Source: Acidimicrobiaceae bacterium (lineage in GTDB: Bacteria; Actinomycetota; Acidimicrobiia; Acidimicrobiales; RAAP-2). From it: 64,000 nucleotides of DNA. Position numbers and translations under genes: made by a program. Location of the stretch: positions 50,957-114,956 of the forward strand of contig PMFN01000022.1 of NCBI GenBank assembly GCA_003155135.1, read 5' to 3'. Below the pieces are notes generated by a model that saw nothing but the letters and a program-made list of their open reading frames with translations, ran no database searches and was not told the origin of the DNA. Shown piece after piece: positions 23,579 to 39,877 of the stretch. Numbering within the stretch: position 1 is the stretch's first letter; each line of letters starts with the position of its first letter.

Positions 23579-24571
23579 GTGAGCGAGACCGAGCAGACGA
23601 CGGTCGACGTCGCTGCCCCGACCAACGGCGACGGCGAAGAAGCGCACCGCACGTCGGTGCCCATCCCCATCGCCCGCCTCTCCGACCCGCACCTCCAAGA
23701 TGCGGCGCGCTACCCCGAACGGGTGGAGCGCATCGCGGCGGTCGCCATGGTGCTCGGCACCATCGCGGTCGCCGGGTTCGGCGTCGCCTACTGGCAGAAC
23801 GCCAACCCATGGATCCTCGGTGCCACCTTCGGCGCCGGTCTCCTCCTGCTGGGCTTCGGGCTCACCACCTGGGGCAAGTACCTGATGCCCCAGGGCCCCT
23901 TCGTGGAGGAGCGCCACCCCCTGGCCTCGACACCGGCCGAACGCGACGCCATGTCGGCGGCCCTCGTCCAGCGCTCGGGCATCGTGGTCAAGCGCCGCCG
24001 CATGCTCGGCGGCCTGCTCGCCACCGGCCTCGGGGTCTTCGGCATCGTCGCCCTCTTCCCGCTGCTCCGCTCGCTCGGGCCGGTCCCAGGCGACACACTG
24101 ACAAAGACCAACTGGAAGAAGGGCTCACGGCTCGTCGACTCGAACGGCCGGCCCATCAAGGTCAACGAGCTCGAAGTCGGCGGCATCCAGACCGTGTTCC
24201 CCGAGGGGAACGCCTACACCGAGGAGGGCCAGGCCGTCGACCAGACCGTCCTCATCAGGGTCGGCACCTCGGCCATCGTGACGATGCCCGGCCGCGAGAC
24301 CTGGGCCCCGGCCGGCTACGTGGCCTACTCCAAGGTGTGCACGCACGCCGGCTGCCCGGTCGGCCTCTACGAGCAGCAGCTGCAGCTCCTCGTGTGCCCC
24401 TGTCACCAGTCGATGTTCGACGTCACCAACGGCGCGGTGCCGAAGTTCGGGCCCGCCCCGAGGCCGCTCCCGCAGCTGCCGCTCCAGATCACCTCTGATG
24501 GCTACCTCGTTGCCCAGGCTGGCTACGATCAGCCCGTGGGCCCTGGCTACTGGGAGCGCAACTCGGGATGA
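23579..24571 (+). CDS. qcrA: Cytochrome bc1 complex Rieske iron-sulfur subunit
   Basis: A 330-residue Rieske protein with the three-helix N-terminus usual in actinobacteria. Two helices lie near residues 55-105. The third follows an internal twin-arginine-like motif KRRRMLGG (residues 138-145), which in Streptomyces QcrA directs Tat export of the C-terminal domain. The [2Fe-2S] ligands are in CTHAGC and CPCHQS. It passes electrons from quinol to QcrC. The GTG start has GAGGCGGGG upstream; the in-frame extension to 23462 overlaps qcrC. Its stop overlaps the qcrB start by 4 bp (ATGA). Confidence 0.95.
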   Translation: MSETEQTTVDVAAPTNGDGEEAHRTSVPIPIARLSDPHLQDAARYPERVERIAAVAMVLGTIAVAGFGVAYWQNANPWILGATFGAGLLLLGFGLTTWGKYLMPQGPFVEERHPLASTPAERDAMSAALVQRSGIVVKRRRMLGGLLATGLGVFGIVALFPLLRSLGPVPGDTLTKTNWKKGSRLVDSNGRPIKVNELEVGGIQTVFPEGNAYTEEGQAVDQTVLIRVGTSAIVTMPGRETWAPAGYVAYSKVCTHAGCPVGLYEQQLQLLVCPCHQSMFDVTNGAVPKFGPAPRPLPQLPLQITSDGYLVAQAGYDQPVGPGYWERNSG

Positions 24572-26273: not shown

Positions 26274-27221
26274 GTGACGCGACGCCTCGTGCGACTGGGC
26301 GGCGCGGCGCTGGCGGTCAGCTTGTTGGCCGCCTGCGGTACCACGACCGGCACGGCATCTCGTCCGCCGACCGGGTCGACGACGAGTGCGGCGCCGACCA
26401 CCACGACGACCACCGTCCCGCCGACGACGACCACCACGACCGCGCCCGAGCAGCCCGGCTGGACCACCGCCGACCGCAGCGCCCTGGGCATCAACGCCGA
26501 CCAGCGCACCATCGCCGAGCCTGACGGCACCCAGATCGCCATCACCCGGTTTCTCGCCGCACGGGTCCACTACGCGCTGCACGTGGGCAGCGAGGACCCA
26601 CCAACGGGCAGCGCCAGCATCACCGCCCTCGACGGCTCGATCGTTGCGCCGCAAGAGGCGCCCATCCTGGTCGGCGCCTTCAATGGCGGGTTCAAGGTGG
26701 CCGCGGCGGCGGGGGGCATGGAGGTCCTCGGTCAGGTGCTGACACCACTCGAGAACGGGCTGGCCAGCCTCGTCATCGACCAGGACGGCTCGGCGCACAT
26801 CGGCATCTGGGGCCAGACCATCCCGGTCCCGGGCGAGGCGGTTGCCAGCGTCCGCCAGAACCTCGCCCCCCTGGTCGTGAACGGGGCGCCCAGCCCGTCG
26901 ATCAACGACATCGCGGCCTGGGGGGCGACACTGGGCGGCGGCTCGGCCGTCGCTCGCAGCGCCCTCGGTATCGACGCCCAGGGCAACCTGCTCTACGCCG
27001 GCTCCATGTCGGCGGTCCCCGCCGACCTGGCGAATGCCCTCATCGCCGCGGGTGCGGTCACCGCCCTGGAGCTCGACATCAATCCCTACTGGGTCCAGGT
27101 GGACACCTCGCCCACTCCCGGCGCGCCCCTCGTGGCCGGCGTACCCGGCCAGCAGCGGCCCGCCAACCAGTTCTCGGTCGGCTGGACCCGGGACTTCGTG
27201 ACCGTGCTTTCAAACGGCTAG
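26274..27221 (+). CDS. Phosphodiester glycosidase-like (NAGPA/DUF2233) lipoprotein
   Basis: A 315-residue exported protein. The N-terminus has a basic start, a hydrophobic stretch and a lipobox LLAAC (Cys near residue 22), so it should be lipid-anchored outside the cell. A Thr-rich linker follows (residues ~25-58). The remaining domain has GAFNGGFKV, LVVNGAPSPS and the end motif VTALELDINPYWVQ, which match the NAGPA/DUF2233 phosphodiester glycosidase family of cell-surface proteins. Specific substrate unknown. It lies 65 bp after qcrB and probably has its own leaderless promoter. A role near the respiratory complex is not implied. Confidence 0.75.
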   Translation: MTRRLVRLGGAALAVSLLAACGTTTGTASRPPTGSTTSAAPTTTTTTVPPTTTTTTAPEQPGWTTADRSALGINADQRTIAEPDGTQIAITRFLAARVHYALHVGSEDPPTGSASITALDGSIVAPQEAPILVGAFNGGFKVAAAAGGMEVLGQVLTPLENGLASLVIDQDGSAHIGIWGQTIPVPGEAVASVRQNLAPLVVNGAPSPSINDIAAWGATLGGGSAVARSALGIDAQGNLLYAGSMSAVPADLANALIAAGAVTALELDINPYWVQVDTSPTPGAPLVAGVPGQQRPANQFSVGWTRDFVTVLSNG

Positions 27222-28109: not shown

Positions 28110-28502
28110 CTAAACGTGGCCGCCCCGGCGGCTCTCGACGGTGGCGCCGATCAGGGCCGAGACGACGAGGGCGAGCGCAACCGGTGCGAACCAGATGCCG
28201 AACACGAAGGTGAGGCCGATGAAGAAGGCCCCCGAGGCGAGAACGAACGGCCAGATGCTCGATCCGGGGAAGCTGCTGATCACGCCCGCACCGCTCGCGA
28301 TGGTGGCGTCGGGGTTGTCCTCGGGCCGTTGGCCCATCTTGCGATACCAGTAGTAGTAGTACCCGCCCGGCAACAGGCCCAGCAGGGCCGAGCCGATCAG
28401 CATCAAGGTGCCGGCCTGCTCGTAGGACGTGAACCAGTAGATGGCACCGATGATGGCGAAGAAGATGCCGATGACGAGCAGGATGAACGACTCGGTCTTC
28501 AT
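28110..28502 (-). CDS. ctaF: Cytochrome c oxidase subunit IV (actinobacterial CtaF)
   Basis: A 130-residue protein with four membrane helices: [65 protein letters not shown] and [15 protein letters not shown]. The middle loop [20 protein letters not shown] is typical of the actinobacterial CtaF family. It is a small structural subunit of the aa3 oxidase. The ATG overlaps the ctaD stop by 4 bp, and it ends the ctaC-ctaD-ctaF operon. Confidence 0.9.
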
Positions 28503-30265
28503 ACCTCCACCGTCTCCCTCGTGCCGCCCGAGCCGTCACCACCGTGGCCGCTCGACGGGCCGGTGGGTTTGCCGTGGTGCAGGGCCGGGGAGTCAGGGTG
28601 GTTGTAGTCCCACGTGGGCCGCTCGGAGCGGATCGGCGGGAGGTGGGTGAAGTTGTGGTGCGGCGGGGGTGAGGTGGTGAACCACTCGAGGCCGCCGGCG
28701 TCCCAGGGGTTGTCACCAGCCGGCACCGGGTTGCGCCAGGAGATCCAAAGATTCACGAGCAGGATGGCGAAGCTGATGCCGATGACGAAGGCGCCGATCG
28801 TCGAGATCTGGTTGTAGACCTGCCAGCCGAGGTTCGACGGGTAGACCGCCACGCGCCGTGGCATGCCCTTCAGGCCCACCTCGTACTGCGGGATGAAGGT
28901 CAGCCAGAACCCGATGAACAGCAGCCAGAAGTGCCACTTGCCGAGCTTGTCCGAGAGCATCCGGCCGAACATCTTCGGGTACCAGAAGTACAGCCCGGCG
29001 AAGCCGGCGAACACGGCGGTGCCGAAGAGGACCTGGTGGAAGTGGGCGACCACGAAGTACGTGTCGTGGGTGAAGAAGTCGAGGGCGGGTGCCGCCAGCA
29101 TGACGCCGGTGACGCCACCCATGAGGAAGGCGAAGAGGAACCCGATGCAGAACAGCATGGGCGTCTTGAACGACAGCTGTCCCCGCCACATGGTGCCGAT
29201 CCAGTTGAAGAACTTGATGCCGGTCGGCACGGCGATCAAGAGGCTCAACAGGCTGAAGAAGGGCAGCAGCACCACGCCGGTCGTGTACATGTGGTGCGCC
29301 CAGACCCCCGTCGAGAGGGCGGCGATCGACAACGTGGCGAAGACCATGCCCTTGTAGCCGAACACCGGCTTTCTCGAGAACGTCGGGATCACCTCGGTGG
29401 CGATGCCGAAGAAGGGCAGGGCGAGGATGTAGACCTCCGGATGGCCGAAGAACCAGAAGAGGTGCTGCCAGAGCACGGGCACACCACCGCCCGAGACCGT
29501 GAAGATGTGCGTCCCGAAGTGCCGGTCGCAGTAGAGCATGATCAGCGCGGCGGTGAGCACCGGGAAGGCGATCAGGATCAAGATGCCGGTCACCAACATG
29601 TTCCAGGTGAAGATCGGCATCCGGAACATGGTCATACCCGGGGCGCGCAGGTAGAAGATGGTGGCGACCAGGTTCACCCCGGTGAAGATGGCCGAGAAGC
29701 CCGTCAGGGCCAGCGCCATGATCCACATGTCCGAGCCCGCCCCCGGTGAGTTCGTGGCGTTCGACAGCGGGGCGTAGGCCACCCAGCCGAAGCTCGAGGC
29801 GCCGCCGGCCACGAAGAAGCTGAGCAGCATGGTGATCGAGCCGCCGGCGTAGAGCCAGTAGGAGAGCGCGTTCAGGCGGGGGAAGGCCATGTCGGGCGCG
29901 CCCACCTGCAACGGCACGATGTAGTTGGCGAGGCCACCGAAGGCGAAGGGCCCGGCGAACAGGTACAGCATCAGGCTGCCGTGCATGGTGAACAGCTCGT
30001 TGTACTGGGAGAAGCTGAGCAACGAGCTCGACGGGCTCGCCAGCTGGAGGCGGATGACGAGGGCCATGATGCCCGCCAGGTAGAACATCACGAGCGACGT
30101 GATCATGTAACTGAGGCCGATGACCTTGTGGTCGGTGGTGGTCAGCCACTTGAGCACGCCGGTCGGGCCGTGCTCCTCAGCGTGGCCGTGCTCGACCACG
30201 TGCTCGTCGACCGCCGTTACGTCGCCCCCACCACCGATGACCGGCGGGTTGATGACGTCGGTCAT
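28499..30265 (-). CDS. ctaD: Cytochrome c oxidase subunit I
   Basis: A 588-residue haem-copper oxidase subunit I with twelve predicted helices. It holds haem a, haem a3 and CuB. Key motifs are [30 protein letters not shown] (CuB His and the Tyr cross-link helix), HHMYTTGV, and [17 protein letters not shown]. It reduces O2 to water and pumps protons; the HPEVY motif and the standard helices suggest an A-type enzyme. A 30-residue His- and Glu-rich N-terminal extension ([11 protein letters not shown]) precedes the core. Its ATG overlaps the ctaC stop (ATGA). In-frame sequence upstream to 30421 lies in ctaC and is not used. Confidence 0.95.
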
Positions 30266-31089
30266 GAGGAGCCTCCTTGCACGGTGCTCGAGTTTGCGTG
30301 GTACGCCGTGGTCGACGCCGACGTGGAGTTCTGTGCGAGCCACGCCTCGTAGGCCGAGGGCGACACCGCCTTGACCTGGAAGATCATCAGCGAGTGGTAG
30401 AGCCCGCAGAGCTGCGTGCACTGTCCGCGGAAGGTGCCGGCGTGGTTCACGTTGAAGCTGAACTGGTTCGTCACGCCCGGCAGGGCGTAGCGGCTGAAGT
30501 TGAACTCGGGCACGTAGAAGCCGTGGATCACGTCGCTCGAGCGGAGCACGATGTGGACGTTCTCACCGACCGGCACGACCATCGTCGGGTTCTGCAGCTC
30601 CTGGCCGATCACGGTGACATTGTGGCCTGGGTAGCTGAACCGCCATCCCCACTGGAAGGCGGTGACGTTCACCTGGACGTTGGAGGCCGGGACCGCGTCC
30701 ACCGAGTTCTCCGTGACCACCGAGAAGTAGAACAACACCAGCACCATGACGATCGGCACCACGGTGTAGATGATCTCGAAGAGCGTGTGGTACTGCGTCT
30801 GGGCCGGGATCTTGTCCGAGCGGCGGCGGTAGCGCAGCACCGCCCAGAGAATCAGGAACGCCACGAGGATGAACACGCACAGCCCCGTGATGAAGAACCC
30901 CTGCCAGAGCTTGTTGGCGTCGACGGCCTGCTTGGTGGCACCCCGGTAACCGCCGAAGGTGGGCAGTTGGCAGCTGGCCAGAACGAGGGGGCTGAGGACG
31001 ACTGCCCCGAGCGCCAGGCGGCGCGTCGTCAGCTTTGGCAGCCTCCGACGGGGTCGCGCTAGGGGTGAGCCGGCCGAGGGCGAATCCAC
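30262..31089 (-). CDS. ctaC: Cytochrome c oxidase subunit II
   Basis: A ~275-residue membrane protein with the CuA electron-entry site. It begins with a signal sequence and lipobox (LVLASC), has two membrane helices ([20 protein letters not shown] and [18 protein letters not shown]), and then the cupredoxin domain with the copper-binding motif [14 protein letters not shown]. It receives electrons from QcrC. The start is uncertain. A TTG at 31098 and a GTG at 31089 are in frame, and neither has a Shine-Dalgarno sequence. A TAGATT hexamer sits 7 bp before the GTG, so I prefer the GTG as a leaderless start. It is first in ctaC-ctaD-ctaF. Confidence 0.92.
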
Positions 31090-31184: not shown

Positions 31185-32477
31185 TCAATCCTCGGGCGAC
31201 GAGGTGCGCGCCGCCCAGTTGAACACCCCTTTGGCCATGGTCGAGGTCGCGTGCTCGGCGCGCGTGGTGAACACCCGCTGGCGGGCGTCCGCGATGGCCG
31301 GGTCGCTCGGATCCGCCAGCCACGCCATCTCCGCCAGGTGCCCCGCCAGGCGGAGTGCCCCTTCGGTGTCGGGTCCCGCAGCGGTCGGCGCCGGCTGGTT
31401 GAGCAGCTCGAGGGCTCGTGCCGCCAAGGCGCCAGGCCCGCCGGCGAGGGCCGCCACCTCGCTGGCCAGGGCCACCTCGGGAGCCGGCTTCAAGGTGGCG
31501 GGGTTGCCGTCCCACCAGCCGCCGTAGAGGCGCCAGATGTTGTGCACGATGAACTCGGGCTCGTCGTAGATCGGCCGCAGATACGACAGCCCGGCGAGGT
31601 GGGAAGGGACCTCGACACTGTGGATGGCTTCGTCGAGGCGCCCACCGTTGTTCATGATCTCGAGCGTCTGCTCGACGAGGGACTCGAGCAGCTCGGCGGT
31701 CCCGCCGAGCGCCTGGGCGACCCGGTCCGAACCCATGACCGGCAGGCCGTGGCCGGGGAGAAGGTACTCCGCATCCAGGGTCAGCATGCGCCGCAGGGCC
31801 TGGGCCCACTCACGCGGATAGCGCTGCACCTTCTGGGGGTTGCCGGCGTTGGGCGAGGCGAAAATGAACAGGTCGCCGCAGCACAGCACACGCTTGTCGG
31901 CGAACCAGCTCACCGTGTGGTCGTCGGTCTCGCCCTTCTCGTGGACGAGGTCGAGGTGCACGCCGCCGACATCGAGGGGGCGCCCAGCCCGGTAGGTCTC
32001 GTCGGGGTAACGGTATGCCGTCGGCCAGATGAGGTTCTTGAAGCCGAACTGGCGCCGGTTAATGACCTGGTTGTAGCCGGCGGTCGCGATGTAGCGGTCG
32101 AAGCGGTCCCGAATCGCCTCATGGGCGATGACGACCGGTGGAGCCCACCCCTTCTCCGCCGACTCCGCCTCCCAGACGCCGACCCCGAAGACGTGGTCGA
32201 TGTGCCCGTGCGAGAAGACCGCGGTGTTGAGGCGCTGGTCGCTCCAGCGCCGCAGTTCGGTGTGGATCAGCGGTGCGACGGGCTCTGAGCCGGTATCGAT
32301 GAGCACGAGGCCGTCGTCGGTCGTGATCGCCGTGACGTTGGCCAGGGTGGGGACGAAGGCCACGCCCTGGCAGATCTCGGCCATGCCGCCGAGGTGGCCG
32401 ACGGGGTGGTACTCGCTCCAGGGATCGACCTCGCCGCGCCAGAGGCGGTCGGCCATCTCGACGACGTCAACTGCCAC
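31185..32477 (-). CDS. Metallo-beta-lactamase-fold hydrolase, alkyl sulfatase-like
   Basis: A 430-residue cytoplasmic MBL-fold protein. The metal-binding motif is SHGHIDH in VFSHGHIDHVFG, with later ligands in GETDDHT, CGDLFIFA and LLPGHGLPV. The second half (LRPIYDEPEFIVHNIWRLYGGWWDGNP) has the dimerisation-like segment of SdsA/alkyl and aryl sulfatase relatives. It therefore likely hydrolyses an ester or sulfate ester; the exact substrate is unknown. It is shorter than SdsA (~650) because it lacks the C-terminal SCP2 part. The GTG start has AAGGGCGG upstream. It is a single gene on the minus strand between ctaC and tatA. Confidence 0.8.
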   Translation of the reverse strand: MAVDVVEMADRLWRGEVDPWSEYHPVGHLGGMAEICQGVAFVPTLANVTAITTDDGLVLIDTGSEPVAPLIHTELRRWSDQRLNTAVFSHGHIDHVFGVGVWEAESAEKGWAPPVVIAHEAIRDRFDRYIATAGYNQVINRRQFGFKNLIWPTAYRYPDETYRAGRPLDVGGVHLDLVHEKGETDDHTVSWFADKRVLCCGDLFIFASPNAGNPQKVQRYPREWAQALRRMLTLDAEYLLPGHGLPVMGSDRVAQALGGTAELLESLVEQTLEIMNNGGRLDEAIHSVEVPSHLAGLSYLRPIYDEPEFIVHNIWRLYGGWWDGNPATLKPAPEVALASEVAALAGGPGALAARALELLNQPAPTAAGPDTEGALRLAGHLAEMAWLADPSDPAIADARQRVFTTRAEHATSTMAKGVFNWAARTSSPED

Positions 32478-32540: not shown

Positions 32541-32777
32541 TCAGGAGGGCTTGGTGGAGCCCGGGTTCTCGCTCTTGGCCTCCGTCGAGTCCGGGGCCGG
32601 GGTGTCGGTCGCGGTGGCGTCGTCCTCGTGGCCCTCGGTCATGCCCTTTTTGAATTCCTTCTGGGCCGAGCCGAGGTTGCGGGCCAGCTTCGGGATGGCA
32701 GCGCCACCGAAGAGCACCACGACGATCACCAGCACGACGATGAGGAGGTCCGGGCCGAAGATTTCTGCCAGTTGCAT
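32541..32777 (-). CDS. tatA: Sec-independent protein translocase TatA
   Basis: A 78-residue Tat component. The single helix FGPDLLIVVLVIVVVLFGGAAIPKLARNLG has the TatA hinge (FG) and amphipathic helix, followed by SAQKEFKKGMTEG and an acidic, disordered tail (DATATDTPAPDSTE). It forms the pore part of the twin-arginine exporter, which moves folded proteins such as Rieske domains. AAGGAG lies 6-8 bp before the ATG. TatB and TatC are not in the window. Both Rieske proteins here carry internal twin-arginine motifs. Confidence 0.9.
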   Translation of the reverse strand: MQLAEIFGPDLLIVVLVIVVVLFGGAAIPKLARNLGSAQKEFKKGMTEGHEDDATATDTPAPDSTEAKSENPGSTKPS

Positions 32778-35580: not shown

Positions 35581-36273
35581 TCAGCGGTCGCCCTCATTTT
35601 CGGCGGCCGGTGCGGCCACCAGCTTGTCCTCGGTCTCGGGATGGGTGGCCTCGTAGCCCTCCTCGAAGGTGCGCTCCTTGCGGCGTGAGCGCAGGAGCAA
35701 GGTGACCGCGGCGACCACCACCAGGGCCAGGACGGCGTAGGAGGCCCAGTTGGCGTATTTCTCGGCGCGTTGGTAGGCGTTGCCGACCAGGTAGCCCAGC
35801 ATGACGTAGCCGGTGCCCCAGATGACCCCCCCGGCGGCGTTGGCCATCAGGAAGGTGCGGTACCGCATGCCCGAGAGCCCGGCCAGGCCGGGAATGACCG
35901 CCCGCAGGAAGGCGGTGAAGCGGCCGATGAACACGGCCCACGCGCCGCGCGTCTTGAGCAGGCCCATCGCCCGGTCGATGCCGCCGCGGCGGTGCCGAAG
36001 GAGCTTGAAGTTGAGGACCCGCTCGCCGTAGCGCTTGCCAACCTCGAAGCCCACGCTGTCGCCGGTAATGGCGGCGACGATCACGAGCGGGATGAGGATG
36101 GCGAGCTGGACGCGGCCCTGGCTGGCGATGACCCCACCCAGGATGACTGCGGTCTCGCCGGGGAAGATGAAGCCGACGAAGATCGCCGCCTCGGAGAAGA
36201 CGAGGGCGAAGACAATGAGGTAGACGGCGAGCGGGCTCATGTGCAAGATGGGATCGAGGATCTGGGTCAGCAC
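35581..36273 (-). CDS. DedA family membrane protein
   Basis: A 230-residue DedA-type integral membrane protein, likely involved in lipid or undecaprenyl-phosphate translocation across the membrane. Hallmarks are VGFIFPGETAVILGGVIAS, GDSVGFEVGKRYGERVL, the charged GRFTAFLRAVIPGLAGLSGMRYRTF and a C-terminal helix followed by RRKERTFEEGYEA. The start is taken as the GTG at 36273, with GGGGGATGA ~9 bp upstream. The C-terminal tail is long and charged. It is a single gene, convergent with the GH1-like gene. Confidence 0.85.
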   Translation of the reverse strand: MLTQILDPILHMSPLAVYLIVFALVFSEAAIFVGFIFPGETAVILGGVIASQGRVQLAILIPLVIVAAITGDSVGFEVGKRYGERVLNFKLLRHRRGGIDRAMGLLKTRGAWAVFIGRFTAFLRAVIPGLAGLSGMRYRTFLMANAAGGVIWGTGYVMLGYLVGNAYQRAEKYANWASYAVLALVVVAAVTLLLRSRRKERTFEEGYEATHPETEDKLVAAPAAENEGDR

Positions 36274-36416
36274 ATCTTCATCATCCCCCGCAGGTCGGGT
36301 CGGGCCAACCCCGAGGCCGCGCGGCACGGCCCGCTCCCTATCCTGTGGTTGATGAGCTGGCGCGATGCACCCTGTGCTTCAGCGGTCTCTCAGCGCCAGT
36401 GCGCCAGACTGGGCTT

Positions 36417-37730
36417 ATGTCGCAGCGCAGCCGCCCGGTGCGCACGGTGAGCTCGAAGCCGGTGAGCACCCGGCCGGGGAGCCCGAAGACCAAGACGGTC
36501 ATGAAGCGCCCGGCGCGCTGGGTGTTCTGGTCCCCTCCGCCCCACGCCAACGCGATGGCCTCGTGGGCGCTGCTCCCGCTGCGGGCATTCCTCGGTTTCA
36601 CCTTCTGCTTCGCGGGGCTCCAGAAGCTCACCAATCCGAACTTCTTCAACGCGCAGAGCCCCTCGAGCATCCAGGCCCAGCTGATCGCCGCCAACCGCAT
36701 CAGCCCGCTGCACGTGCTGCTCGGCCACCTGCTGCAGTTCGCCACGCCACTCGGCATCGTCATCGCACTCGGCGAGCTGGCAGTCGGCATCGGTGCGCTC
36801 CTCGGCCTGTGGACCCGCATCGCCGCTCTGGGTGGCATGGCGCTGTCGGCCATGCTGTTCCTCACCGTCAGCTTCCACTCCTCCCCCTATTACACGGGCG
36901 CGGACATCGTGTTCTTCTTCGCCTGGACCCCGTTGCTCATCGCCGGTGCCGGGGTGCTCTCGCTCGACAGCCTCATCAGCTCGTTTGCCCGCAACGAGGT
37001 GGGGCAGGGCTCGCCGGTCTTCGTGCCCGTCACCTTCGAGCTCGTGCAGAAGGTGTGCGGCAACTTCGACGATGGCCACTGTGCCGCACAAAAGGGCGCG
37101 CCGTGCGACACCAAGGGCTGCCCCTACCTCGCCGCCCAGCACACTCCGAGCGTCCGGGCCAACCCCGACGCCGTCGACCGCAGGATGCTCGTGCTCGGCG
37201 GCGCGGCCGTGGCCACCGCGGGCATTGTCGGACTCACCACCGCGGGCATCTCGGCGGCGATCGGCCGGATGGTGGGCGGCGCCAAGGCGCCGAACTCGGG
37301 CTCGGGCACGTTGCCCGGGCCCTCCGCTTCGGGATCGACCTCGACGACCGCTCCCACGGGCGCCACGACCACCGCGCCGGCGGGTGTCACGACCACCACC
37401 ACGCCGGTGGCCGTCCCGGCCGGCACCCGAGTCGGGCCGGCCAAGGACGTGCCCGTCGGGGGTTCGGCCTCCTTCCAGCTGCCCTCGAGCGGCGACCCGG
37501 GATTGATGCTCCAACTCAGCTCGGGCAGCTTCCTCGCCTACGACGCCATCTGCCCGCACGCCGGCTGCACCGTGGGGTACTCGAGCGCGGCCAAGCTCAT
37601 CGTCTGCCCGTGCCACGGGTCCGAGTTCAACCCGTCCAACGGTGACGTCATCCAGGGGCCTGCCCCCCGAGGCCTCACGTCGTACCCGGTGGCCGAAGGC
37701 CCCGACGGCGAGCTGTACGTCAAAGACTGA
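36417..37730 (+). CDS. DoxX-like membrane domain fused to Rieske [2Fe-2S] domain
   Basis: A 437-residue fusion. The first part (~40-200) is DoxX/TQO-like with four helices (LPLRAFLGFTFCFAGLQKL, GIVIALGELAVGIGALLGL, ADIVFFFAWTPLLIAGAGVLS). A Cys-rich linker follows (CGNFDDGHC ... CDTKGC). Then there is an internal twin-arginine-like DRRMLVLGG (254-262) and one more helix, a Thr-rich linker, and a Rieske domain with ligands CPHAGC and CPCHGS. It probably passes electrons between the quinone pool and an extracellular partner. The ATG at 36417 is the start choice; later Met codons are possible. The neighbouring two-component pair may regulate it. Confidence 0.75.
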   Translation: MSQRSRPVRTVSSKPVSTRPGSPKTKTVMKRPARWVFWSPPPHANAMASWALLPLRAFLGFTFCFAGLQKLTNPNFFNAQSPSSIQAQLIAANRISPLHVLLGHLLQFATPLGIVIALGELAVGIGALLGLWTRIAALGGMALSAMLFLTVSFHSSPYYTGADIVFFFAWTPLLIAGAGVLSLDSLISSFARNEVGQGSPVFVPVTFELVQKVCGNFDDGHCAAQKGAPCDTKGCPYLAAQHTPSVRANPDAVDRRMLVLGGAAVATAGIVGLTTAGISAAIGRMVGGAKAPNSGSGTLPGPSASGSTSTTAPTGATTTAPAGVTTTTTPVAVPAGTRVGPAKDVPVGGSASFQLPSSGDPGLMLQLSSGSFLAYDAICPHAGCTVGYSSAAKLIVCPCHGSEFNPSNGDVIQGPAPRGLTSYPVAEGPDGELYVKD

Positions 37731-37791: not shown

Positions 37792-38469
37792 GTGCGGATC
37801 CTGATCATCGAAGACGAGGAGTCCCTCGCGGCAGCCGTCAAGGTCGGCCTTGAGGCGGAAGGCTTCACGGTCGATGTCGCCCACAACGGGCTGGACGGCC
37901 TCGAGATGGCGCGCGAGGACCTCTACGACCTCGTGGTGCTCGACATCCTGCTCCCGGGCATGAACGGGTTCCAGCTCTGCGCGACGTTGCGCTCGGACGC
38001 CAACTGGGTCCCGATCCTGATGCTGACCGCCAAGGTGGGCGAGCTCGACGAGACCGAGGCGCTCGACACCGGGGCGGACGACTTCTTGACCAAGCCGTTC
38101 TCGTTCGTGGTGCTCGTGGCACGCATCCGCGCCCTGCTGCGGCGTGGCCGGCCCGAGCGCCCGGCGGTCCTCGCGGCGGGGGATCTCACGTTGGATCCCA
38201 CCGAGCACCGGTGCCGGCGCGGGGAGGTCGAGATCGACCTCACGCCCCGCGAGTTCGCCCTCCTCGAGTTCTTCCTGCGCGTGGCGGGTGAGGCCGTGAC
38301 CAAGCGTGACATCCTCGACCACGTCTGGGGCGACGACTTCGCAGGTGACCCCAACATCGTCGAGGTCTACGTCGGCTACCTCCGGCGCAAGATCGACGCG
38401 CCGTTCGACCGCGCCGCCTTGGAGACGGTTCGCGGCATCGGCTACCGCCTCAATGCCGACGGCGGCTGA
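37792..38469 (+). CDS. OmpR-type two-component response regulator
   Basis: A 225-residue DNA-binding response regulator. The receiver domain has the acidic pair in IIEDEE, the phosphoryl-acceptor Asp51 in VVLDILLPG and Lys101 in LTKPFSF. The C-terminal winged helix has LTPREFALLEFFLRVAGE, the recognition helix region VWGDDFAGDPNIVEVYVGYLRRKID and a final ETVRGIGYRL. The histidine-kinase gene overlaps its 3' end by 17 bp, so the two are co-expressed. Its targets are unknown; the DoxX-Rieske gene 61 bp upstream is one candidate. Confidence 0.93.
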   Translation: MRILIIEDEESLAAAVKVGLEAEGFTVDVAHNGLDGLEMAREDLYDLVVLDILLPGMNGFQLCATLRSDANWVPILMLTAKVGELDETEALDTGADDFLTKPFSFVVLVARIRALLRRGRPERPAVLAAGDLTLDPTEHRCRRGEVEIDLTPREFALLEFFLRVAGEAVTKRDILDHVWGDDFAGDPNIVEVYVGYLRRKIDAPFDRAALETVRGIGYRLNADGG

Positions 38470-39877
38470 CCCCGCGGGCGCCCGCGTCGAGCCCCCCGCG
38501 CACGAGCGCCGCGTGGAGGGCGCGGCGCGCTCCGTGTTCAGCTCCGTGCGGGTGCGCATCACCATCGCCGCCCTGCTCGTGGTGGCCGTGACGCTGGCCG
38601 TCGGCGGCGCAGGCCTCGTGTTCCTGGTGCACCGCTCGCTCGTGAACAACGCCCGCAGCGCGGTGATCAGCGAAGCGGACAACGTCGGCTCCGTCGTCGC
38701 CCAGGGCGTGGTGCCCACACACCTGGTGGTGCGCGTCGGCACCGCCGTCCAGGTCGTCAATGCAAAGGGGCAGGTCCTCACCTCGTCGGGCGACCTCGAC
38801 CGGCGCGGCCCGGTCACGACCATCCGGCCGCCGGTCGGCGGCCGGATGATCCTGGCCACCACCGGGGAGCTCCCCGGTGACGACGACGCCGACACCACGG
38901 TGGCCGTGACCGTCTCCTCGCCGAAGGGGCCGCTCACCGTCTATGCCGTGAGCAGCGGCGAGGCGACCGAGAACTCCACGCACCTGCTCGGCTTCTTCCT
39001 CGCCCTCGGGCTCCCGTTCGTGCTGCTCATCTCGGGCCTGGCCGCCTGGATCCTGGCCGGCAGGGCGCTGCGTCCCGTCGAGTCGATCCGTGCCGAGGTG
39101 GCCGACATCTCGGGCCGCGACCTCAACCGCCGGGTCCCCGAGCCGCCCATCGACGACGAGATCGGTCGGCTGGCGCGCACCATGAACGCCATGCTGGCGC
39201 GCCTCGAGGCGAGCACCGACCGGCAGCGCCAGTTCGTCTCGGACGCCTCCCACGAGCTGCGCAGCCCGCTCGCCGCACTGCTGGCCCAGGTGGAGGTGGC
39301 GCGAGCCCACCCCGAGCGCGCCGACTGGGAGGCGGTCAGCGACGTCGTCGCCGCCGAGGGGTCGAGGCTCGAGCGGATCATCGACGAGCTGCTGCTCCTG
39401 GCGAGGAGCGACGAGGGCCAACTCGAGGCCGGCACCGAGCCGGTCGACCTGGACGAGCTGGTCTTTGGTGAGGCGCAGCGCCTCTCGGCGGTCACCGACA
39501 TCGCCGTCGACCTGCACGGGGTCACCGCCGGCCGGGTGACCGGGGATACCGAGCAGCTCCGCCGGGTGGTGCGCAACCTGGCCGACAATGCCGCACGCCA
39601 CGCCCGCTCGACCGTTGCGTTCGAGGTCGGCCACCATGACGGTGTGGTGGAGCTGGCGGTGAGCGACGACGGTCCCGGGATCCCGCCCGACCAGCGGCTG
39701 CGGGTCTTCGAGCGCTTCGCCCGCCTCGACGAGGCCCGTGACCGCCCCGGGGGTGGCACCGGCCTCGGACTCGCCATCGTGGGCGAGATCGTCCAGGCGC
39801 ACGGCGGCAGCGTCATGGTCACCGACGCGGCGCCCGGCGCGCGCTTCGAGGTGGAACTCCCCGCCTACCCGGACTGA
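38453..39877 (+). CDS. Sensor histidine kinase
   Basis: A 474-residue membrane histidine kinase. A cytoplasmic N-terminus of ~30 residues leads to helix 1 (TIAALLVVAVTLAVGGAGLVFLV), an extracellular sensor region of ~100 residues and helix 2 (LALGLPFVLLISGLAAWILAG). A HAMP domain follows, then HisKA with His267 in SDASHELRSPL. The ATPase domain has NLADNAARHA, SDDGPGIPPDQRLRVFERF and GGGTGLGLAIVGEIV. The signal is unknown. The start at 38453 overlaps the response regulator by 17 bp, which is normal for coupled pairs. Confidence 0.92.
   Translation: MPTAADPAGARVEPPAHERRVEGAARSVFSSVRVRITIAALLVVAVTLAVGGAGLVFLVHRSLVNNARSAVISEADNVGSVVAQGVVPTHLVVRVGTAVQVVNAKGQVLTSSGDLDRRGPVTTIRPPVGGRMILATTGELPGDDDADTTVAVTVSSPKGPLTVYAVSSGEATENSTHLLGFFLALGLPFVLLISGLAAWILAGRALRPVESIRAEVADISGRDLNRRVPEPPIDDEIGRLARTMNAMLARLEASTDRQRQFVSDASHELRSPLAALLAQVEVARAHPERADWEAVSDVVAAEGSRLERIIDELLLLARSDEGQLEAGTEPVDLDELVFGEAQRLSAVTDIAVDLHGVTAGRVTGDTEQLRRVVRNLADNAARHARSTVAFEVGHHDGVVELAVSDDGPGIPPDQRLRVFERFARLDEARDRPGGGTGLGLAIVGEIVQAHGGSVMVTDAAPGARFEVELPAYPD

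Follow-up and report, generated by a model that had tools for sequence, protein, structure and literature searches.

The fusion gene and its surroundings

The window, by which we mean the whole 64,000-nucleotide stretch of DNA analysed here, carries a gene for a DoxX-Rieske fusion protein at 36417-37730 (+). Its frame of 437 aa runs uninterrupted from the ATG at 36417 to the TGA at 37730. No stop or frameshift was found in it, and the alternative in-frame start, a GTG at 36345, would merely extend the N-terminus. The encoded chain consists, in order, of a DoxX four-helix domain, a loop with four cysteines (Cys4), the arginine pair R255-R256, a fifth helix, a linker and a bc1-type Rieske domain. 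Pfam placed DoxX (PF07681) at aa 51-154, with 36 bits against a cut-off of 23.6, and Rieske (PF00355) at aa 339-424, with 48.8 against 20.3; DoxD also scored above its cut-off (25.8 versus 22.7). When the whole protein was scanned, no Pfam or NCBIfam model matched the Cys4 loop. A first-pass annotation of the sequence had proposed this architecture of DoxX, four cysteines, RR, helix and Rieske domain on one chain, and the single 437-aa frame and the Pfam matches bear it out; the motif DRRMLVLGG was also correctly placed, at residues 254-262. In the AlphaFold2 model (mean pLDDT 81.8, pTM 0.72) the four helices are followed by a small loop region and a long helix 5, then by a linker of low confidence and a Rieske domain modelled with confidence. 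The features of the fusion gene are:

36540..36632 (+), helix 1 of the DoxX domain, aa 42-72; helix in the model, with invariant P54, R56 and K70
36711..36803 (+), helix 2 of the DoxX domain, aa 99-129; helix in the model, with invariant E120
36813..36872 (+), helix 3 of the DoxX domain, aa 133-152; helix in the model
36897..36974 (+), helix 4 of the DoxX domain, about aa 161-186, of which the model shows 161-176 as helix; invariant D163 at its outer end
37056..37121 (+), Cys4 motif C214-x7-C222-x7-C230-x4-C235-P, in a loop that is cytoplasmic by predicted topology
37164..37274 (+), helix 5, aa 250-286; helix in the model, putatively transmembrane and Tat-dependent
37179..37184 (+), twin-arginine pair R255-R256, present as RR in 89 of 90 members
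37275..37421 (+), flexible linker rich in Ser, Thr, Ala and Gly, aa 287-335, with low pLDDT and a conservation of 0.28
37425..37721 (+), Rieske domain, aa 337-435, by PF00355 and the fold match to 8hn2 (Z 15.3)
37551..37568 (+), Rieske box 1, CPHAGC, with ligands C379 and H381 and disulfide cysteine C384, invariant in 90 members
37605..37622 (+), Rieske box 2, CPCHGS, with ligands C397 and H400, disulfide cysteine C399, and S402, invariant in 90 members

About 10 kb separate the fusion gene from qcrCAB, and 5 to 8 kb separate it from ctaF-coxA-coxB. Between it and the oxidase genes are tatA and a weakly CopD-like gene, an order that is kept in many relatives. The following list gives the neighbours together with their recurrence next to relatives that carry the Cys4 loop (the Cys4 form); only loci with room were counted, 50 for the two-component pair and 49 for the DedA-type gene.

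37792..38469 (+), OmpR-type response regulator, directly downstream of the fusion and in the same place in 35 of 50 Cys4-form loci
38453..39877 (+), histidine kinase (HAMP, HisKA, HATPase), present in 34 of 50 Cys4-form loci
35581..36273 (-), divergent gene for a DedA-type membrane protein, named by resemblance; 36 of 49 Cys4-form loci
32541..32777 (-), tatA (PF02416)
28110..31089 (-), ctaF-coxA-coxB of an aa3-type oxidase; COX1 by Pfam, the other two by position combined with resemblance; part of the conserved neighbourhood by synteny
23579..24571 (+), qcrA, a gene separate from the fusion, with an internal KRRRMLGG (23990-24013) at residue 138, before the third helix

The tatA gene (32541-32777 (-)) and the two-component pair (37792-39877 (+)) were found near the fusion as the earlier annotation had it, and so was a QcrA with a comparable internal RR, since KRRRMLGG precedes its third helix. 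The best NCBIfam matches of the pair were a heavy-metal regulator (216, cut-off 279.2) and a heavy-metal sensor (229.8, cut-off 292.55), both below cut-off. The pair probably controls the fusion or senses its redox state. Two more genes of this region were recorded: an alkyl-sulfatase/metallo-beta-lactamase-type gene between coxB and tatA (31185-32477), which is kept in a number of relatives, and a gene for a lipoprotein-like protein between qcrB and the oxidase genes (26289-27221), with a weak match to phosphodiester glycosidase (NAGPA) just below the cut-off.

A widespread family in two forms

The earlier annotation had advised searching for the same architecture, and the fused frame recurs widely, both across genomes of the window's family and in named loci. 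A protein search recovered it, at identities of roughly 45-65%, in about 20 of the 37 genomes searched in the window's family. When named genomes were searched with the DoxX domain, at least 586 relatives came back, and nearly all of the best 80 of these had a Rieske domain in the same frame. Most are Acidimicrobiia; the rest include Streptosporangiales-type genomes, a Nocardiopsis-labelled bin, the isolate Acidithrix ferrooxidans and some Acidobacteria-labelled bins, the last of which are possibly misbinned. Among 396 genomes drawn from the phylum, two other families supplied more fused forms. A plasmid search gave Rieske-only matches, and in 61 genomes of the Streptomyces-type genus the matches of a Rieske scan were too numerous to inform. 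The fusion family is real, widespread, conserved and biologically coherent, and the recurrence of the fused frame is not due to chance. Because the single fused frame is conserved, two translation units joined by a frameshift or separated by an internal start are ruled against.

We aligned 90 fusion members, mostly from Acidimicrobiia, with some from Streptosporangiales-type actinobacteria. The Cys4 loop was present in 73 of them, with the exact C-x7-C-x7-C-x4-CP spacing in 61 of these 73; the remaining 17 lack it and make up a short form. From helix 4 to RR the median distance was about 23 residues in the short form versus 72 in the Cys4 form. A tree of the members, with weak deep branches, placed about five switches between the two forms, which implies either repeated gain or loss of the loop or an uncertain tree. 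Around the short form the response regulator (0/7), the kinase (0/7) and the DedA-type gene (0/10) were all missing. This association of form with neighbourhood gives no independent functional evidence, because both largely follow the same lineages.

Several loci of the family had other neighbours. A fatty acid desaturase gene adjoins the short form in eight (L049, L050, L053, L097, L106, L109, L119, L129), and in L050 its frame, directly behind the short form, overlaps the fusion frame by 11 bases; directly behind the Cys4 form a desaturase was found in 0 of 50 loci. L033 (6031-12829) carries a second fusion copy after ApbE, ferric-reductase-like and NuoF-like genes and with a two-component pair behind it, which is another electron-transfer setting; L072, L079 and L092 have similar genes near their fusion. 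In L032, L036, L054 and L055 the fusion directly adjoins a gene for a Kelch-type beta-propeller with a hydrophobic N-terminal segment. Streptomyces-type genomes (L166-L169) encode a DoxX protein of 550-585 aa with RR before the fifth helix, a long low-complexity tail and no Rieske domain.

A split form was found in one other actinobacterial family, where four of the seven standalone Rieske genes that we fetched adjoin a standalone DoxX gene. Pfam confirmed DoxX in three of these loci and Rieske in two of those three. The standalone Rieske partners that were read have lipoprotein-like signal peptides which begin with SRxRF or SRKKF rather than a strict RR and close with a lipobox-like ACG. Since DoxX and Rieske are fused in one lineage and adjacent genes in another, the two halves probably work together.

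The twin-arginine pair, the Rieske head and the DoxX fold

All but one of the 90 aligned members (89) have RR before helix 5, and KK, KR or RK did not occur as substitutes. The sole exception has RS in its place (DRS; L079, 8995-10155). Mean conservation was 0.99 for RR versus 0.42 for the loop and 0.47 for helix 5, and even the short form keeps RR despite its shortened stretch after helix 4. A strict Tat-motif rule, reportedly that of Rose et al. 2002, was passed by 80 of the 90 members; the window protein failed it because M257 comes right after RR. Four helices lie before RR in the model and one after it, and K or R stands behind helix 5 in 88 of the 90 members. TatC was found in the window's genome. 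Dual Sec/Tat targeting of the fusion, which the earlier annotation had suggested, is well supported by comparison; its topology and Tat dependence are predictions made from sequence only.

Insertion energies were computed with a predictor whose values differed by 0.01 to 0.56 kcal/mol from four published ones (PMC5449189). Helix 5 of the window fusion was predicted at +0.21, the only positive value among its helices. Across the family the energy of helix 5 was positive in 65 of 90 members, but the means of helix 4 (+0.37) and helix 5 (+0.38) were alike, and low hydrophobicity therefore fails to single out helix 5. Nor does the insertion-energy rule fit the QcrA of the window, as its helix 3 is strongly hydrophobic (-1.72), unlike that of published actinobacterial QcrA. 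A plain sum over the biological hydrophobicity scale was dropped, since its control failed by ranking QcrA helix 3 more hydrophobic than helix 1.

A bc1-type Rieske head outside the cytoplasm is expected to have both the cluster ligands and the disulfide cysteines. The fusion has C-x-H and C-x2-H ligands and a disulfide pair, and all Rieske ligands, both disulfide cysteines, S402 and F404 were invariant in the 90 members. F404 stands where mitochondrial-type Rieske proteins have a tyrosine, which suggests that the potential of the head may be somewhat lower than in bc1. Its closest folds are those of Chlorobaculum tepidum 8hn2 (Z 15.3, 39% identity) and Synechocystis PetC3 5cxm (Z 14.3, 34%); both are standalone Rieske proteins, and neither entry names a DoxX domain.

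For the DoxX part, Foldseek alone gave no significant match. The closest solved fold was NACHO/TMEM35A (Z 11.8, 3.3 Å, 125 aligned), which, unlike the fusion, is a eukaryotic receptor assembly factor without a Rieske domain. There was a weak resemblance to the gamma-carboxylase GGCX (Z 7.3, 3.2 Å, 128 aligned) and one to VKOR (Z about 5), both of which act on quinones of the vitamin K type. We take this likeness as a lead only, because unrelated helical bundles reach such scores.

Proposed assembly and electron path, and known systems

We favour, with moderate confidence, a membrane-bound Rieske electron carrier that is built by Sec and Tat together. Helices 1-4 would be inserted by Sec, and the Rieske head would take up its [2Fe-2S] cluster while still in the cytoplasm. 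Tat would then recognise R255-R256 on the tethered chain, insert helix 5 and export the folded head. Less certainly, the DoxX bundle may bind menaquinol near the outer face, and the tethered head may hand electrons on to an external acceptor such as the cytochrome c portion of the bc1-aa3 chain encoded nearby. We infer this path, from menaquinol through DoxX and Rieske to the acceptor. The DoxX fold, the Rieske head and the oxidase neighbourhood together make a novel quinone-linked redox enzyme plausible, its quinone site being putative.

The two-machine assembly has to be weighed against other routes. Sec might insert all five helices, with RR acting as a positive-inside signal and the cluster being acquired outside or the head exported unfolded. 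Such a route is in keeping with the equal mean hydrophobicity of helices 4 and 5 and with the strict Tat motif broken by M257. RR may indeed serve topology alone, given that the five-helix DoxX proteins of Streptomyces type, which have no cofactor domain, also keep it before helix 5. The RS of L079 and the absence of a strict RR from the standalone Rieske partners likewise speak against assembly by both machines. A topology signal would tolerate lysine, however, yet KK, KR and RK were seen in 0 of 90 members, and other exported Rieske proteins receive their cluster before Tat export (PMC5449189). We regard insertion by Sec alone as unlikely, though with a share of the probability that deserves attention. 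That the head instead stays in the cytoplasm and passes electrons to an enzyme there, such as the desaturase encoded next to the short form, strikes us as improbable: the position of that gene directly behind the short form, with its overlap in L050, speaks for it, but the disulfide cysteines are invariant, the linker is rich in T, S and A, the number of helices before the head is odd and the Cys4 form has no desaturase directly behind it.

Other readings differ in what the protein would do. A role in metal or oxidant stress under a CopRS-like two-component pair would agree with the heavy-metal models that the pair matches best and with the weakly CopD-like gene nearby. Those matches stay below cut-off, however, the short form lacks the pair and no metal efflux gene was recognised adjoining the fusion; we hold this role to be quite unlikely. 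The earlier annotation had named thiosulfate and nitric oxide as substrates to try. In a DoxDA-type thiosulfate:quinone oxidoreductase the Rieske domain would stand in place of DoxA, and the DoxD match above the Pfam cut-off fits this, but the NCBIfam equivalog for the DoxD of that enzyme scored 15.6 against a cut-off of 300. Because DoxA (PF07680) was found neither in the fusion nor in the 93%-complete genome, such an activity, and with it thiosulfate as substrate, is highly improbable. Nothing that we found supports nitric oxide.

The Sec/Tat-built electron carrier that we favour allows a bolder proposal, to which we would assign a low probability. The DoxX menaquinol bundle and the extracytoplasmic Rieske head might form a minimal menaquinol:acceptor oxidoreductase outside bc1, with a cytoplasmic metal site at Cys4 linked to a dedicated two-component system, and might represent a previously undescribed family of respiratory proteins targeted by both Sec and Tat.

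Few polytopic proteins require Sec and Tat together, and the fusion family would add one. Its strictly conserved twin-arginine signal in mid-protein suggests that its assembly takes the cooperation of two export machines, and its natural variants (two loop lengths, the RS exception and the split forms) make the rules of the handover from Sec to Tat testable. The fusion also links DoxX, a domain of little-understood chemistry, with a defined electron carrier, and through the Rieske signal the function of DoxX becomes measurable.

In the titles, abstracts and term counts of the literature that we searched, no paper joins DoxX and Rieske in one protein. DoxDA thiosulfate:quinone oxidoreductase shares the DoxX/DoxD membrane domain, with DoxA where the fusion has a Rieske head. 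Actinobacterial QcrA (Sco2149-type), the Rieske protein of cytochrome bc1 with three helices, matches the fusion in its internal RR and bc1-type Rieske domain, and also in what is predicted for the helices of the fusion, an even number inserted by Sec and a last one that depends on Tat. In place of QcrA_N (PF19297), which was absent from the Pfam matches of the fusion up to E 1, the fusion has the DoxX four-helix domain and the Cys4 loop, and it scored below the QcrA model NF050121 (44.4 versus 275 bits). Among the dual Sec/Tat polytopic families that Tooke et al. described in 2017 are the Sco3746 MoCo protein, the polyferredoxin and the YkuE type (PMC5449189). Like the fusion, the five-helix families described there have four helices, RR, a fifth helix and a cofactor domain; the membrane domain of the fusion is DoxX, a word absent from that paper. 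The same paper names KSE_30950, a Rieske homologue that has five helices with RR at the fifth and may itself be a DoxX-Rieske protein. As a kind, the fusion is a variant of the known Sec/Tat polytopic Rieske proteins.
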